From assembly GCA_024404675.1 (NCBI GenBank), contig JAKSPO010000010.1, positions 1-62,204 on the forward strand: DNA of 62,204 nt, in the 5' to 3' direction. Shown piece by piece: positions 3,482 through 43,467 of this stretch. A model generated the notes under the pieces. The model was given only the letters and a program-made list of their open reading frames with translations. It was not told the DNA's origin and ran no database searches. Position 1 is the stretch's first letter. Each line of letters begins with the position of its first letter. Source of the DNA: Lachnospiraceae bacterium. Its GTDB lineage: Bacteria; Bacillota; Clostridia; Lachnospirales; Lachnospiraceae. The position numbers were made by a program, and so were the translations under genes.

Positions 3482-5263
3482 TTAGAAATCTCCTTTAAGT
3501 GATAATGCCCGATACACCTCTGATACGGTGATAAACTCCGACTTCGGTGCGCTGGCCTGCGGAAACAGCTCCCGCATAATATAAGTTACCTGCGGCGCAC
3601 CAAGTCCGATACGCTCAAGCTCCTCCACATGGGTAAAAACAACGCTTGGCTTACCCGCATATAAAAGCGAGCCCTTATCCATAACATGGACCCAGTCCGC
3701 ATAACGCGCCACATCCTCCATGCTGTGAGAAACCAAAACAACCGTGATTCCTGCTTCCTCATGGATTCTTTTAATCTCCGCGAGAATCTCGTCGCGTCCC
3801 TTCGGATCAAGTCCTGCGGTCGGCTCATCGAGAATCAATACCTCCGGGCGCATCGCAAGAACACCTGCAATCGCCACACGCCTCTTCTGTCCGCCGGAAA
3901 GCTCCATCGGAGAGTCGTTCCAAAGCTCCTCATCAACATGGGTAAGTCTGAGGGCTTCCTTTGCGCGAAGTAACTGCTCTTCCTCGGAAAGCTTCTGGTT
4001 CTTCGGTCCGAAACATACATCACGAAGAATCGTCGATTCAAAAAGCTGGTGCTCCGGGTACTGAAATACAAGACCGACTCTGCTTCTTAAAAGTCGTCTG
4101 TCGTACTGCTCGCCGTTAATATCCTCGCCCTTAAACAAAACCTTACCGCCAGTCGGCTTCTCAAGACCGTTCAGAAGCTGAATCAGGGTCGACTTGCCGG
4201 ATCCGGTATGACCGATCAGGCACACAAACTCACCCTTTCTGATCTGGAGCGAAACATTCTTCACGGCCTGCTTCTCATACGCCGTATTGGGTGAATAGGT
4301 ATATGAAACATCGGCAATCTCGATAAGCGGAGCCTCATCCTCGGAAAGCTTCGTAACGGAAGTCTCCACCTCTTTCGGAAGCCTTTCGTACGGATCTGTC
4401 ACACGATACGCTTCAGGAAGTGCCCTGTAAGCCTCTACAAACTCCTCTGCGGAAAGAATTCCCTTCGGAAGGGGAATTCCCCCCTCTCTCAGCTTATGCG
4501 CAAGAATTGTGGCTTGTGGTGCGTCAAGGCCAAGCTCCGCGAGCTCATCGAGTCTCGAGAAGATCTCCCGAGGCGTTCCCTGCATCGCAATACGGCCGCG
4601 TTCCATAACAATCACACGGTCAGCCTTTGTAACCTCGCTCATATAGTGCGTAATCAGAATAACCGTGATGCCTTCCTCGCGGTTCAGTCGCTGAACGGTA
4701 TCAAGCACCTCTTTACGTCCCGTCGGATCAAGCATTGCCGTAGGCTCATCAAGGATGATACACTCCGGCTTCATCGCCATAATGCCAGCAACCGCGATAC
4801 GCTGCTTCTGCCCGCCGGAAAGCTTGTTCGGCGAGTCCTTCCTGCGATCGTACATCCCTACGGAGCGAAGGCTTTCCTCTACACGCTTGATCATCTCCTC
4901 ACGCGGAACGCCAAGGTTCTCAGGGCCAAATGCCACATCGTCCTCCACAACGGTCGCAATAATCTGGTTGTCCGGATTCTGGAATACCATACCGGCTGAT
5001 TTGCGGATATCAAAAAGAAGCTCCTCGTTCTTCGTATCCATACCGCACACAAGCACAGTTCCCTCTGTCGGCACTAAAAGCGCATTGATATGCTTCGCCA
5101 TCGTGGATTTGCCGGAGCCGTTATGACCTAAGATGGCTATAAACTGCCCTTTTTCAATATCGAGGTCGACCTCATCGATTGCACGCTTTGCACCGATCGG
5201 ATCACCGTTCTCGTCGTGACGCTGATACTCATAGATCAGCTTCTCTGCAGATACGATACCCAT
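3482..5263 (-). CDS. ecfA: fused ECF transporter ATPase (EcfA1-EcfA2 in one chain)
   Basis: A single 593-residue chain contains two complete ABC ATPase domains. Domain 1 has Walker A GHNGSGKST at 46-54, signature LSGG at 148-151 and Walker B IILDEP at 169-174. Domain 2 has GHTGSGKST at 351-359, LSGG at 455-458 and LILDEP at 476-481. The two are joined by a linker at roughly 270-312. In most Firmicutes EcfA1 and EcfA2 are separate adjacent genes that form a heterodimer, so here the pair is fused. Both halves keep the motifs needed for ATP hydrolysis. With EcfT it powers uptake of vitamins or metals through S components encoded elsewhere. Confidence 0.93.
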   Translation of the reverse strand: MGIVSAEKLIYEYQRHDENGDPIGAKRAIDEVDLDIEKGQFIAILGHNGSGKSTMAKHINALLVPTEGTVLVCGMDTKNEELLFDIRKSAGMVFQNPDNQIIATVVEDDVAFGPENLGVPREEMIKRVEESLRSVGMYDRRKDSPNKLSGGQKQRIAVAGIMAMKPECIILDEPTAMLDPTGRKEVLDTVQRLNREEGITVILITHYMSEVTKADRVIVMERGRIAMQGTPREIFSRLDELAELGLDAPQATILAHKLREGGIPLPKGILSAEEFVEAYRALPEAYRVTDPYERLPKEVETSVTKLSEDEAPLIEIADVSYTYSPNTAYEKQAVKNVSLQIRKGEFVCLIGHTGSGKSTLIQLLNGLEKPTGGKVLFKGEDINGEQYDRRLLRSRVGLVFQYPEHQLFESTILRDVCFGPKNQKLSEEEQLLRAKEALRLTHVDEELWNDSPMELSGGQKRRVAIAGVLAMRPEVLILDEPTAGLDPKGRDEILAEIKRIHEEAGITVVLVSHSMEDVARYADWVHVMDKGSLLYAGKPSVVFTHVEELERIGLGAPQVTYIMRELFPQASAPKSEFITVSEVYRALSLKGDF

Positions 5264-5296
5264 AATAGCTCCTTTCCCTTTTATCGCGAGATGTGA

Positions 5297-5327
5297 AAAC
5301 AGCGTAGCCGTTTCCGGCTACGCTGCT
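5297..5327 (-). terminator. hairpin between rplQ and ecfA
   Basis: Inverted repeat AGCGTAGCCG (5301-5310) and CGGCTACGCT (5315-5324) with a four-base loop. On the minus strand it is followed by TGTTTTC, a weak U tract, so it may only partly end the ribosomal transcript and let some read into ecfA. Confidence 0.65.
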
Positions 5328-5344
5328 GTAATAATCAAAGAATT

Positions 5345-5878
5345 CTATACAAGCTCGATAAGAACTTCCATAGCTGCGTCACCCTTACGAGGGCCAATCT
5401 TTACGATTCTGGTGTAACCACCCTTACGATCAGCATACTTAGGTCCGATCTCATCAAACATCTTAGCAATAAGATCAACTTCCTTGATTGCCTTTCTTCC
5501 CTTCAGCTCGGTATCCATCTTGGTAACCGGGTAGAAGAAAGCCATCATCTCTCTTCTGGCATGAAGTCTGGAAGCCTTGTCCTTCTTGATGGTCTTCTGT
5601 ACTTCATCAAATACATCAACCTTCTTACCGTTAACAACTTCCTTTACTCTCTTGCCATCTTTATCCTTACGAGCAACCTTGCCGGTAACCGTTACAGTCT
5701 CGTAATTGTCCTTCTCCTTAGCTGCAAGAGTAATGTACTTTTCAGCAATTCTGCGAATTTCCTTAGCTCTGGCTTCGGTGGTAACAATCTTACCATTGGA
5801 CAAAAGAGCGGTAACCTGGTTTCTCAACAATGCTTTTCTCTGACTTGAAGTCTTTCCAAGTTTTCTGTAGCCTGCCAT
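5345..5878 (-). CDS. rplQ: 50S ribosomal protein L17 (long form)
   Basis: L17 sits near the peptide exit tunnel of the large subunit. The start MAGYRKLGKTSSQRKALLRN and the end GDAAMEVLIELV are canonical, but the protein is 177 residues rather than the usual 113-130. The extra length is a lysine-rich segment at about residues 62-100, within what is normally a short loop. An in-frame ATG four codons upstream is part of the GGAGG ribosome site, so the start at 5878 is preferred. It is the last ribosomal gene of the alpha operon and follows rpoA by 51 bases. Confidence 0.95.
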   Translation of the reverse strand: MAGYRKLGKTSSQRKALLRNQVTALLSNGKIVTTEARAKEIRRIAEKYITLAAKEKDNYETVTVTGKVARKDKDGKRVKEVVNGKKVDVFDEVQKTIKKDKASRLHARREMMAFFYPVTKMDTELKGRKAIKEVDLIAKMFDEIGPKYADRKGGYTRIVKIGPRKGDAAMEVLIELV

Positions 5879-22121: not shown

Positions 22122-22484
22122 AAAAATAGCGCCTCCTTTTCGCACTTAATAATGGATAAAGTACAACAAGTGGTGCCTGTACACTCAACCGTGTGTTTCC
22201 AGTCTCGGTTAAAAGAATACCAAGCATCGCTGCTTGGTTCTGATACCGTACAACATTCGTTTCACACGTCTTATCTGCCTCAATGGCAGAAAATGTTGTT
22301 AATGGTACAGTGACTTGTCGCCAGAATCAACTCATGACATTCGCTCCACGGAAAACTCAATCTTGCGATTGACAACCTCACGCTTCACAGCTATCACGTC
22401 ACAGCACTATAAACTATAACACACCGGAAATCAAATTGCAAGAAGAAAATTTATTTTTTTGAAAATATTTTTCTTCCCGCAAAA
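22122..22484 (-). promoter_or_regulatory. S10 operon leader region
   Basis: No gene is present. On the minus strand the transcribed leader of about 280 bases can fold into several hairpins: ACCAAGCA GCGA TGCTTGGT with a GNRA loop, CTGCC ATTGA GGCAG, and AACAACATT pairing with AATGTTGT around it. It likely has a role in controlling the operon, but I do not recognise a named leader. Confidence 0.6.
22406..22441 (-). promoter_or_regulatory. two overlapping promoters of the S10 operon
   Basis: Minus-strand TTGATT (22429-22434), 17-base spacer and TATAGT (22406-22411). Seven bases upstream a second set fits equally well: TTGCAA (22436-22441), 17-base spacer and TATAGT (22413-22418). They are offset by exactly seven bases, so two start sites are possible. 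Confidence 0.8.
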
Positions 22485-39639: not shown

Positions 39640-39752
39640 CTCGTACCTCCGCTCGATTCAAAAACTCCTCTTCCCTTACAGGACATCCTGTTACTATACT
39701 ACCAAATCCTTTGCTACAATTCAACAACAACTTCGCCCGGCTATGGAGATGA

Positions 39753-39781
39753 TTGACAACATCTCCCGACAATGCTACAAT
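39753..39781 (+). promoter_or_regulatory. promoter of tRNA-Leu(UAG)
   Basis: Plus-strand TTGACA (39753-39758), 17-base spacer and TACAAT (39776-39781), 13 bases before the tRNA. Confidence 0.88.
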
Positions 39782-39794
39782 GAAACAGTTCCGT

Positions 39795-39879
<85 letters not shown>

Positions 39880-39885
39880 ACCTAG

Positions 39886-39926
39886 TAAAATAAGGCAAAG
39901 CGAGAAATCGCTCTGCCTTATTTTTT
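39886..39926 (+). terminator. terminator after tRNA-Leu(UAG)
   Basis: Hairpin with arms AATAAGGCA and TGCCTTATT around GCGA GAAA TCGC, ending in TTTTTT. It lies inside the island, so the element supplies the tRNA's terminator; the former native one is probably the hairpin at 43464-43500. Confidence 0.85.
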
Positions 39927-40090
39927 ATGTCATTTATGGGATTTCCCAAAATTTTTCCCCAAATTTCTGAAAAAAAGAAAAAACGCATCAGCCAATGCGT
40001 CTTCTCCGTTGTTGTAGGGCGGGCATTATGCCTCGCTCCAATATCATTCATTTAATACATTATAGCATGTTCGAGCGAGGGTGTCAGGCA

Positions 40091-40150
40091 ATTTTCTTGA
40101 CAGCAAAGAAAAGGAGCACGAATATGCTTATTATTATTGATTCATCTTAA
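40091..40150 (+). other. short translated leader ahead of the structured RNA (promoter-like TTGACA, ribosome site, eight codons)
   Basis: A TTGACA at 40097-40102, a good ribosome site AAGGAG at 40111-40116 and an ATG at 40124 open a frame MLIIIDSS that stops at 40148-40150, just before the folded region begins. It may be a leader peptide or the 5' remnant of a gene interrupted by the structured RNA. Confidence 0.4.
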
Positions 40151-40620
40151 TGGGCGAGTTGTCGCATTCTGTCGCGACGAGGCTGACAGACGCTTGCCTA
40201 TGAGCAACATTGGGAGATCGTGTGATGCGGAGCGTACTACTCTGCGTGCATCGGCATCCGGGGAGACTTGCCCGGAATAATCAAGGATGTTCGGCGCAGC
40301 CAATTCAATAAGTGTGCCCGGCGGGAACAATCAGACCATCATTGTGAACGTCGTCAGGGGTTGAAGAGCGGACGGATGACCTCGTTATGCCCGGTTTAGT
40401 AATACCGGGTTAAAACTAACCCGCGGGGGCTCCAGGGTGTCGTATGCCGGTACCAATACGAGGAGTCACGCCTATTGTCAGCAATGGCAAGCAAGCAGTT
40501 GCCCGGAGACGCTTGTTGGGGCGTGTGCACATAGCAGTGCAAGTGCAGATGGTCAGCAATACGGATACTTCGCCGATATACGGTGCCAGTCCAGTGCACT
40601 ACTTGAAGTAGATGAGTGCA
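40150..40620 (+). ncRNA. candidate large structured non-coding RNA, family unassigned
   Basis: About 470 bases, GC-rich compared with the AT-rich flanks, with no sensible reading frame but dense complementary helices on the plus strand. Visible stems: TGGGCGAG/CTTGCCTA (40150-40157 with about 40193-40200); GTCGC/GCGAC; GATGCGGAG/CTCTGCGTGCATC; GGCATCC/GGATGT enclosing CCGGG/CCCGG; ACAAT/ATTGT; GACCTCGT/ACGAGGAGTC enclosing CCCGGT/ACCGGG and CGTAT/ATACG; ATTG/CAAT; and GACGC/GGCGT. The multi-helix layout inside a mobile element next to a tRNA recalls ornate large RNAs such as ROOL or GOLLD, or an omega/HEARO RNA without its IscB-type ORF. I cannot assign it without covariance models. No group II domain V or group I core motif was found. 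Confidence 0.6.
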
Positions 40621-40736
40621 ATGAACTTTGTCATGGCAATTGGATTGAAATCGAACGCAAAAGTAAATATATTCAATTACTCAAGGATCTATTATCCGAA
40701 AACAACATATCTTTTCCGGAAGAATACGAAATATAA
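40602..40736 (+). pseudogene. C-terminal protein fragment after the structured RNA
   Basis: A plausible coding tail of about 44 codons (reading LLEVDECNELCHGNWIEIER, then KSKYIQLLKDLLSENNISFP and EEYEI before the stop) without its own in-frame ATG or ribosome site. Composition changes from the structured, GC-rich RNA to normal AT-rich coding sequence here. It could be the 3' part of a gene whose start is the eight-codon frame at 40124. No family is recognised. Confidence 0.4.
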
Positions 40737-40773
40737 CATATTCTTTGGCAAAAGGGGTTGGGATTAATCCCAG

Positions 40774-40836
40774 ACCCTTAAACCAGACCCTCACGAAGTA
40801 CCCTCAATCCAAACCCTCTCCAAGAACCCTCAAAAA
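40774..40836 (+). repeat. five phased 13-bp repeats (ACCCTY iterons)
   Basis: ACCCT(T/C) starts at 40774, 40787, 40800, 40813 and 40826, exactly 13 bases apart. The remaining seven bases of each unit vary, with a preference for CAA/GAA. They follow the palindrome GGGATTAATCCC (about 40760-40771). The fixed period with a conserved hexamer is what an array of protein-binding sites (iterons) or a repetitive RNA looks like. Confidence 0.7.
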
Positions 40837-40881
40837 ATTTGATTATCCAAAAAAAGACCCCTATACCATTTCTGATATAGA

Positions 40882-40916
40882 GATCTTCGTTATGTCATCT
40901 TAACTTAATGACATTG
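40882..40916 (+). repeat. 35-bp inverted repeat, left copy
   Basis: GATCTTCGTTATGTCATCTT followed by AACTTAATGACATTG. Its reverse complement matches 43021-43055 at 34 of 35 positions. The two copies bound a 2174-bp segment. Confidence 0.9.
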
Positions 40917-40959
40917 GAACAAGTTCCTACCCATTAATAATCCTACTCGCTAAAGAAAA

Positions 40960-41337
40960 TTAAGCTTCCTTCTGCTCAACAACCTTCTTGTTGTATCTAC
41001 CGCAAGACTGGCACATTCTGTGAGGTATCATCAACGCACCGCACTCCTGACACTTTACAAAATTCGGAGCGGTCATCTTCCAGTTTGCTCTACGGCTATC
41101 TCTTCTTGCTTTCGAATGTTTATTCTTCGGACCAATAGCAGCTTTTTCAAATTCCGGGGTTCTTCTCCGTCTTTTAAAGTCCGCCGGAGAAACTCTGTTG
41201 CCTGCCTCCCGGGTTAATCCACCGGATTCCGAATCCATACTCTCTTCCGAATCGGATTCAAATCTCTCTTCGTCTTCCTTGATCGCTGCCCCCAGATAGT
41301 CAATTCCCCTTCTTGGTCTAATGGACCTTACCGCCAA
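40960..41337 (-). CDS. ribosomal protein L32-like protein with a foreign N-terminal extension
   Basis: Of 125 residues, the last 57 (about 69-125) are a near-complete bacterial L32: GPKNKHSKARRDSRRANWKM, then the zinc ribbon C96, C99, C109, C112 (CQECG, CQSCG). L32 normally starts MAVPKNK at this point. Here the initiator Met is missing and the frame continues into about 68 upstream residues, rich in acidic and arginine stretches (EDEERFESDSEESMDSESGG, FKRRRRTPEFEK), with its own ATG that overlaps the previous gene by 20 bases. Either rpmF was captured and fused, or this is a specialised L32 paralogue. The housekeeping rpmF is not in the window. It lies inside the inverted-repeat segment. Confidence 0.72.
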   Translation of the reverse strand: MAVRSIRPRRGIDYLGAAIKEDEERFESDSEESMDSESGGLTREAGNRVSPADFKRRRRTPEFEKAAIGPKNKHSKARRDSRRANWKMTAPNFVKCQECGALMIPHRMCQSCGRYNKKVVEQKEA

Positions 41338-41806
41338 TCGGAAAGAGCGGAAGATTTAACGTTGCCCCATACTCCACTAAGACAACATCCTCCAATATTA
41401 CAGCTTCCAAAAATTCCGAAGCACTATTAGAAGATAGCAGAGCCTTAATGCCGTAAAACTTTCCAATCGTATCACAGGAATATTGTTCCGTCAGCACATC
41501 CGTGGAAAGTGTGTGAGATTCTCGATAATACTGTGGTATCGCCAGCGAACCGGTCTGTTTTATGGAATCGCACTGCCAGCCCTCGCTGATTAATTGCTGT
41601 TTCAATTTCCGATACTCTTCCGGGCTCATTTCAAGTCTCTGTCGCACACGTGTTAATGTATGCTCATCTTCCAGAACCACATATTTCTTATATTGATTAA
41701 CATTTCGTCGAAAAGAAGATATCGGAATAAAATAGGATATAACACAGGAAACAAGTAAAATCAAAACCACAATGAAAACTATCATTATAATACGTTTTTT
41801 CTTCAT
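41318..41806 (-). CDS. hypothetical protein with one N-terminal membrane anchor
   Basis: A 162-residue protein from the ATG at 41806, which has GGGAGG nine bases upstream. One hydrophobic segment (residues 6-29, MIVFIVVLILLVSCVISYFI) anchors or exports it, and the remaining 130 residues are soluble with LEMSPEEYRKLKQQLISEGW as a helical part. I recognise no family. It ends 20 bases inside the L32-like gene and follows the secreted-protein pseudogene closely, so all appear to be one operon within the inverted repeats. Confidence 0.6.
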   Translation of the reverse strand: MKKKRIIMIVFIVVLILLVSCVISYFIPISSFRRNVNQYKKYVVLEDEHTLTRVRQRLEMSPEEYRKLKQQLISEGWQCDSIKQTGSLAIPQYYRESHTLSTDVLTEQYSCDTIGKFYGIKALLSSNSASEFLEAVILEDVVLVEYGATLNLPLFPIGGKVH

Positions 41807-41823
41807 CTTCCACGCCCTCCCGT

Positions 41824-42235
41824 CTATAATCCGCACCATTTGAGCATTGTACTAATTGAAATCGTTATTTCATTCATTTTTTTGATGGTAACCGTTGAAC
41901 CATAATTACTTGACATATACGAGTACCACCCTTTTGTTGAAAATGTTATAAATGATCCCCCAATCATATGCATTACAGTACCATCTGCCGCAATCACCGT
42001 CCCCGCATTTACTTTTTTGCAAAAGGCCCTAGCAATATTACTATCTCGGGTTGCATAATGTCCACAATTGCATCCCAAAAGAATCAAAGCACCAATACTT
42101 TTTCTTGGGAGATTATTCACTGCATCTATCGGAAAGGATAAGCCATTTCCATTATTACCTAGCAACAGAAAGGCTTGAAACTCCCGATGTGATAAGCATC
42201 ACAATCAGAAATAGGGCAGATATTCTTCTCTTCAT
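41824..42235 (-). pseudogene. secreted protein gene with frameshift (signal peptide plus mature part in two frames)
   Basis: The ATG at 42235 opens a typical signal peptide, MKRRISALFLIVMLITSGVS then SLSVAR, which stops at 42155. The next frame, open from about 42165 to 41824, carries 112 residues beginning LGNNGNGLSFPIDAVNN and including SIGALILLGCNCGHYATRDS and VNAGTVIAADGTVMH. The parts join sensibly if one base is added or removed near 42160, so the gene is probably broken by a frameshift. The mature part with GCNCGH and ADG segments resembles domains of clostridial surface proteins, but I cannot name the family. Confidence 0.65.
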
Positions 42236-43020: not shown

Positions 43021-43055
43021 CAATGTCATTAAGTAAAGATGACATAACGAAGATC
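43021..43055 (-). repeat. 35-bp inverted repeat, right copy
   Basis: Matches the reverse complement of 40882-40916 at 34 of 35 positions. It ends five bases before recognisable integrase coding sequence begins, so one boundary of the inverted-repeat segment is also the break in the integrase. Confidence 0.9.
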
Positions 43056-43411: not shown

Positions 43412-43467
43412 AGATTTAGGTTCTGGTCCGTGAGGGTGCAGGTTCAAGTCCTGTTATCCGCAAAAAA
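43412..43467 (+). repeat. attR: partial tRNA-Leu copy (56-bp direct repeat copy 2)
   Basis: Identical to 39824-39879. It lacks the 5' half of the tRNA and cannot give a functional tRNA; it marks the right end of the island. Confidence 0.93.

Follow-up and report, generated by a model that had tools for sequence, protein, structure and literature searches.

The DNA from 40150 to 40623 on the forward strand of contig JAKSPO010000010.1 (Lachnospiraceae bacterium, GCA_024404675.1; its 62,204 nt are referred to here as the window) almost certainly represents a real, conserved RNA family. We tentatively assign this segment, with somewhat less than even confidence, to a new family of ~470-650-nt RNAs of mobile elements that aids the maintenance of the elements carrying it. 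An initial annotation of this DNA had proposed that a tRNA-linked island here holds a large structured RNA, and homologues and covariation now back that proposal. It had also seen no protein gene across the region, and the ten frames scanned there (shorter frames were left out) indeed gave no Pfam match at E ≤ 0.01.

The RNA lies in a 3.6-kb island with a 56-bp direct repeat at its edges, identical in both copies and corresponding to the 3' end of tRNA-Leu(TAG) (Table 1). Because the 3' end of this tRNA recurs as a direct repeat, the tRNA gene seems to be where the island integrated and not a member of a tRNA array; the tRNA neighbourhood pointed out initially is genuine in that tRNA-Leu adjoins. 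Six ORFs of the island were scanned, and no replication or integrase gene is among them. The description of the segment as GC-rich within an AT-rich island was accurate: GC content is 0.505-0.555 in four 200-base intervals starting at 40100-40400, against 0.355-0.45 in the flanking intervals (39700-40199 and 40500-41099). At curated thresholds, Rfam models match only tRNAs and one S10-Clostridia ribosomal protein leader (22315-22396, minus strand, 70.1 bits) in the whole window. The Rfam check proposed initially yielded no match on the strand of the RNA, and a permissive search of 39900-40900 returned nothing but a Termite-leu match at chance level, located on the opposite strand outside the RNA.

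Other features of the island were observed in passing. A 35-nt inverted repeat (97%) at 40882-40916 and 43021-43055 encloses 2.1 kb, and a like sequence occurs near contig starts of G313, a genome of the same genus, as with transposon ends. The ORF at 40960-41337 (-) belongs to the Ribosomal protein L32 family and has an N-terminal extension; part of it is 83% identical to a spot on contig C14 of the same genome. Positions 41283-42001 are 96% identical to C29:82304-83021, also of the same genome.

Homologues were difficult to reach by blastn. The blastn check suggested initially matched only the stretch at ~40605-40733, which is the terminal part of an ORF, and this in 4 of the other 298 genomes of the bacterial family; the members came through models and patterns. 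In addition, blastn of the window copy against phages and plasmids gave no match. A search with 40130-40600 against 392 genomes of the order, its own included, returned something at E ≤ 1 in 168 of them; L027, L030 and L034, matches of this search that were inspected, lack the motifs of the RNA family. Two colinear weak matches, singly non-significant (E 0.076 and 0.26), lie on contig C8 of the same genome beside a second tRNA-Leu(TAG). The alignment of this diverged paralogue shares blocks along its length with the window copy (TACTACTC, a GGGGYT...RCCTC hairpin, GGTTAAAACTANCCCGCGG, and AATACGGATAC...GATATACGG), and the predicted fold of the paralogue beats all 20 of its shuffles (z -3.62). 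Searched against 22 genomes of the genus, it gave E ≤ 0.1 in five, its own included; one such match (L048) resembles transporter coding DNA by eye. Two motif patterns applied to 52 loci matched only loci of the window's own genome.

A covariance model of 225 columns built from the window copy and the paralogue (R1) found one further full-length member among 397 genomes of the bacterial family (G192, 83.9 bits); matches of up to 19.2 bits in 24 of the 397 were treated as chance. A conserved-block pattern matched 17 loci in a genome collection, five of which are members by R1 and 12 are not. R1 scores of 67.7-115.4 bits were obtained for L086 (a Lachnospiraceae MAG), L082 (Lachnoclostridium UBA7122), L087 (a MAG labelled Bacteroidota) and L084 (an Oscillospiraceae MAG), while L096 (Lachnoclostridium UBA3320) is the same locus as G192. 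A second covariance model, R2, was made from seven sequences; the window copy, one of its training rows, scores 153.1 bits with it. The Butyrivibrio fibrisolvens plasmid pNP21, located by blastn with L086, scores 98.5 bits with R2. Among the 392 order genomes R2 scored G577 at 92.1 bits and G327 at 39.6 bits, both members, with G351 and G437 treated as chance; 199 genomes of the phylum held no credible new member, the match in G852 again being treated as chance. A pattern search of viral contigs led to L111, an IMG/VR phage contig (105.7 bits); another viral pattern gave L097, a non-member, several others found nothing in viral sequences, and a further one re-found L111. By blastn, L086 and L099 matched no phage, and L098 only itself among plasmids.

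The RNA family comprises 11 distinct loci, nine beyond the window copy and the paralogue, mostly in Clostridia, on a Butyrivibrio plasmid, a phage contig, a Tn7-like element and islands linked to an integrase or a tRNA. It is rare, since the two large scans matched convincingly in only 1 of 397 and 2 of 392 genomes besides its own. The window copy carries the diagnostic features of the family: helix c, the hairpin whose loop forms a pseudoknot, helix d and the GGTTAA block.

Table 1. Features of the RNA and of its surroundings in the window
Feature	Position	Strand	Remarks and basis
tRNA-Leu(TAG)	39794..39875	+	likely island integration site; ARAGORN, Rfam
56-bp direct repeat, left copy (att-like, tRNA 3' end)	39824..39879	+	
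56-bp direct repeat, right copy	43412..43467	+	100% identical
Structured RNA, new-family member	40150..40623	+	ends approximate
5' hairpin GGCGAG/CTTGCC	40153..40198	+	predicted by eye on alignments
Possible outer closing helix CATTG/CAATG	40208..40212 with 40619-40623	+	found by eye; private sequence
Hairpin a, loop GTACTACTC (40234-40242)	40224..40252	+	mostly paired in 7 members, exceptions exist
Hairpin b, CCGGG/CCCGG	40258..40275	+	by eye on alignment A6
Hairpin c, GGCGCA/TGTGCC, helix 40293-40298/40313-40318	40293..40318	+	structure-blind alignment, 9 members
Long-range helix d, 5' strand GACCATC	40334..40340	+	permutation test
Hairpin GGGGTT/GACCTC (40357-40362/40378-40383), loop makes pseudoknot	40357..40383	+	alignment and permutations
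Pseudoknot, 5' strand GCGG	40368..40371	+	permutations and alignment
Conserved block GGTTAAAACTA	40408..40418	+	member alignments
Pseudoknot, 3' strand CCGC	40421..40424	+	permutations and alignment
Long-range helix d, 3' strand GATGGTC	40548..40554	+	permutation test
Conserved block CGGATAC...GATATACGG	40562..40583	+	member alignments
3' hairpin GCACT/AGTGC	40596..40619	+	by eye, alignment
3' end of broken ORF, joined to RNA 3' end	40605..40736	+	intact relative in L002

Covariation among the members backs the fold. In A9, a MAFFT alignment of nine members made without structure (L100 and L111 were left out), 96.5% of the 141 cells of helix c, the GGGGUU/GACCUC hairpin and the pseudoknot are paired, and 9 of the 16 pairs have changed on both sides. 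The covariation score is 0.464, compared with 0.197 in shuffled alignments, and was reached by 0 of 500 shuffles; sliding the partners by 1-3 columns, as a control, left 35-55% paired. A weaker measure, further pair types, was reached by 19 of 500 shuffles. By element, paired cells amount to 100% in helix c (with both-side changes in 5 of 6 pairs), 98.1% in the hairpin and 87.9% in the pseudoknot.

A permutation test over all 11 members compared the pairing of each member's 5' strand with its own 3' strand and with the 3' strands of the others; the segments were picked after the helices had been seen by eye, and a control segment pair was equalled in 766 of 5000 permutations. The own totals of helix d (188, permutation mean 143.1) and the pseudoknot (124, mean 99.6) were reached by 0 of 5000. 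An earlier run with nine members gave 0 of 2000 and 1 of 2000, respectively, and the result survives removal of L082, a close relative of L054. The best helix d spans ~220 nt and takes nine different sequences in the 11 members, those of L084 and L100 (scores 16 and 11) being of doubtful homology; pseudoknot variants include GCGG/CCGC, GUGG/CCAC and UGCC/GGUA. Both models, R1 and R2, included just one of the two strands of helix d, and the pseudoknot pairs were absent from R2. For the outer helix CATTG/CAATG, 119 of 5000 permutations were as good, which is suggestive only. A six-base-pair pairing of GACCTCGT with ACGAGGAGTC, part of the initial annotation, exists in the window but has no clear backing in the 11 members, being equalled in 228 of 5000 permutations; GACCTC is instead supported as pairing with the upstream GGGGTT (18 of 5000). 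An alternation between these two pairings is possible.

These comparisons show a conserved fold in which long-range helix d encloses a hairpin whose loop pseudoknots with a downstream strand; helix c, helix d, the hairpin at 40357-40383 and the pseudoknot are supported by compensatory changes in relatives. The fold of the window copy alone gives no such signal: its 471-nt stretch (-164 kcal/mol) scores z +0.19, with 56 of 100 shuffles at least as good, so the density of helices emphasised initially is in itself nothing unusual. This z value would suit chance helices in decayed coding DNA, a reading to which we give virtually no credence, because the covariation refutes it; the homologues and the ten frames free of Pfam matches also oppose it. 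Lack of covariation and a convincing protein frame had been named as grounds for rejecting the RNA, and the corresponding tests did not refute it.

Two pairs of the hairpin are G-U or U-G in 8 of the 9 members of A9, and therefore an RNA of the window's plus strand is indicated; we infer from this that the RNA is probably transcribed from that strand. The same pairs bear on the reading of the element as a folded single-stranded DNA site (a single-strand origin, oriT or similar) instead of an RNA. A parallel for such a site exists in the structured high-GC region of the 5.6-kb S. mutans plasmids, discussed as DNA replication apparatus in the available part of PMC3547324, but in DNA these positions are poor pairs and become mismatches on the other strand, and we regard a DNA site as quite improbable.

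The window copy retains helix d, the pseudoknot and the conserved blocks. It lacks the AGCCGTT-like 3' tail motif that every other member except L100 possesses (9 of 10), and the ORF remnant starts where this tail would be. For these reasons the window copy, its core complete, may be a remnant that is no longer active. A promoter scan found no site directly 5' of the RNA; promoter- and terminator-like sites around the window copy are about as numerous as in shuffles, and terminator-like sites by the paralogue number 3 against 0.8 in shuffles. Separately, sigma-70 promoter-like sites in the two copies, at window 39976-40087 (-; 11/12) and L046:1241-1358 (+; 12/12), point tRNA-ward from the 5' side of the RNA and are followed by a terminator-like hairpin. 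They could perhaps produce a divergent transcript of ~80 nt; in the window the count of such promoter and terminator sites is no higher than in shuffles.

The known large RNAs named initially as candidates did not account for the element. Neither ROOL and GOLLD nor HEARO nor group I and II introns gave an Rfam match at E ≤ 10 in the window copy, the paralogue or a third member, a result that speaks against the ROOL/GOLLD and omega-RNA identifications. The rival view that the RNA is the guide of an IscB/TnpB-type nuclease, or an intron, could draw on the likeness to omega RNA noted initially, which is likewise an RNA of mobile elements, and on the broken ORF that the window RNA abuts; the missing matches count against it, no IscB or TnpB was noticed by eye in the ORF lists of the members, and we consider it very unlikely indeed. 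ROOL and GOLLD offer a closer comparison. According to the available portion of PMC12286853, they are large RNAs that occur in phages and prophages, in many cases close to tRNA islands, and ROOL has pseudoknots, whereas the tRNA by the window RNA looks like an attachment site. Size, pseudoknot and mobile-element or phage settings would thus suit an ornate RNA that self-assembles into a cage or oligomer and has a job separate from replication; given that no ROOL or GOLLD match appears in the three members, we judge this unlikely.

The nearest catalogued relative may be GEBRO RNA (RF02988) of Streptococcus plasmids. The two share a three-way junction with a GAAA hairpin, a GUAG...GACGC hairpin and AGAAAG; inspection by eye adds a 3' AGTCTGCCC strand and a hairpin resembling AGGTT/GACCT. 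The blocks GGTTAAAACTA and CGGATAC..TATACGG were, in contrast, not seen by eye in two aligned GEBROs. The GEBRO model matches weakly in 4 of the 9 members scanned (L082 and L111 were outside the scan): the C8 paralogue (19.4 bits, E 0.0027), L054 (27.4 bits, E 9.6e-6), L098 (19.9 bits, E 0.14) and L099 (24.3 bits, E 0.006). The alignment of L054 covers positions 1-350 of 350, those of the other three only the surroundings of the junction. There was no match in the window copy at E ≤ 10, and none in L086, L087, L084 or L100 at E ≤ 0.5. No member scanned reaches the gathering score of 284.7 bits (best 27.4), which the control plasmids pUA140 (347.0 bits) and pSt0 (289.6 bits) exceed. The reverse search, made with R2, a model that omits the junction, gave no GEBRO match at E ≤ 10 in either pUA140 or pSt0. 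Kinship of the new family with GEBRO is possible on these alignments.

A search with the GEBRO consensus returned six Streptococcus plasmid records, the two controls among them, and pUA140, with GEBRO at 5167-5510, also has a coupling-protein gene. In the accessible part of PMC3547324, two origins of the S. mutans plasmids pDC09 and pNC101 flank a high-GC region rich in secondary structures, and the SSO is put at 4,998-5,174 of pDC09. Because GEBRO lies near the position of the pDC09 SSO in the similar pUA140, we infer that GEBRO probably is this structured region. LOOT RNA (RF03000) resembles the new family in a GCCUAA-hairpin-UGG..AAAA element followed by GAAA-type hairpins, but members reach only 19.1, 14.2 and 27.5 bits (the best, in L086, at E 0.26 and over 121 positions only) against a gathering score of 46.4, and the window copy has no match at E ≤ 10. 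A LOOT search of 118 genomes of the class found nothing, but its controls were silent as well. That the new family, GEBRO and perhaps LOOT form one superfamily of large RNAs, each supplying replication or partition with an RNA component across replicons that are unrelated, is a conjecture we think unlikely.

Genes beside the members vary. On pNP21, parA (40-807) lies on the 5' side of the RNA, and an ADP-ribosyltransferase and a conjugative-transfer gene on its 3' side; L099 repeats this order of ParA and ADP-ribosyltransferase, and one of its ORFs looks VirD4-like by eye. An ADP-ribosyltransferase gene (PF03496) adjoins the RNA at L098:1257-1835 (-) and L099:582-1160 (+). Six ORFs scanned on L111 include TerL (terminase), portal, capsid, integrase and ParA; here the RNA sits between inverted, iteron-like 22-23-nt repeats 822-845 nt apart, the large ORF adjoining it has no Pfam match, and a small ORF is HNH-like by eye. 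L096 encodes TniB, TniQ and the C-terminus of a Mu-type transposase, as in a Tn7-like element, and L086 an integrase together with a RepL-like match just below its cut-off; L087 has ParA ~1.5 kb from the RNA. In L084 the RNA is close to a sequence that by eye resembles the 3' part of a tRNA; ARAGORN finds no tRNA there. A family of small proteins (33-35% identity, no Pfam match above cut-off) was also observed near the RNA, at L096:2301-2741 (-) and L086:2032-2490 and 3807-4211 (+), and a GcvB-like match at L087:5810-6008 (+), with 38.5 bits against a cut-off of 42 and ending in a terminator-like hairpin, was set aside.

The maintenance role is suggested because three of the 11 loci have the RNA next to parA (pNP21 and the G577 locus) or flanked by iteron-like repeats (the phage contig), because of the parallel with GEBRO, which is located near replication origins, and because of an RNA of the L. 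salivarius megaplasmid. The folded RNA would act beside the replication or partition region of its element and would raise the element's copy number or stability, a mechanism that we advance as possible but doubtful. As the available text of PMC5643018 reports, deletion of the megaplasmid RNA, which is of a different family from the window RNA, lowered copy number, perhaps indirectly according to its authors. In PMC12286853 an abundant, non-essential L. salivarius RNA is cited as a ROOL; in our own reading it is the same RNA. Against the maintenance role, the parA or iteron-like placing occurs in only 3 of 11 loci, and the window copy by itself folds like shuffles and has no promoter site directly before it. 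No replication or partition gene was recognised in the ORFs inspected of the window island, the paralogue stretch, L100, L084, L082 and L096, only part of the ORFs having been scanned in these six loci.

The same neighbourhoods could be read as those of a regulator that acts on conjugation or on adjacent cargo, such as the ADP-ribosyltransferase or mobilisation genes, and not on replication. Conjugative-transfer and ADP-ribosyltransferase genes stand beside the RNA in L098, ADP-ribosyltransferase occurs in L099, a NikA-like gene follows ~130 nt downstream of the C8 paralogue, and NikA/MobC is found ~4 kb off in L087; the ORFs scanned of L096, L086 and L111 contain no such genes, and we hold a regulatory role of this kind to be improbable.

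No description of this RNA family was met in the literature searched, which is no proof of absence, nor was the term "GEBRO RNA" found there; among the papers listed for the bare word GEBRO, which are clinical or laboratory work, it seems to be a company name. Bacterial RNAs of this size are few, and the functions of ROOL and GOLLD are poorly understood, according to the available part of PMC12286853. With this family comes a new fold that includes a covarying pseudoknot; its members span various types of mobile element, and one of them sits on a named small plasmid, pNP21 from Butyrivibrio fibrisolvens D1, on which the role of such an RNA for its element can be studied directly. The family may also link two catalogued orphan families, GEBRO and LOOT; if such a superfamily were true, it would be a portable replicon-maintenance RNA, present in rolling-circle plasmids, parA plasmids, a phage-plasmid and integrated elements.
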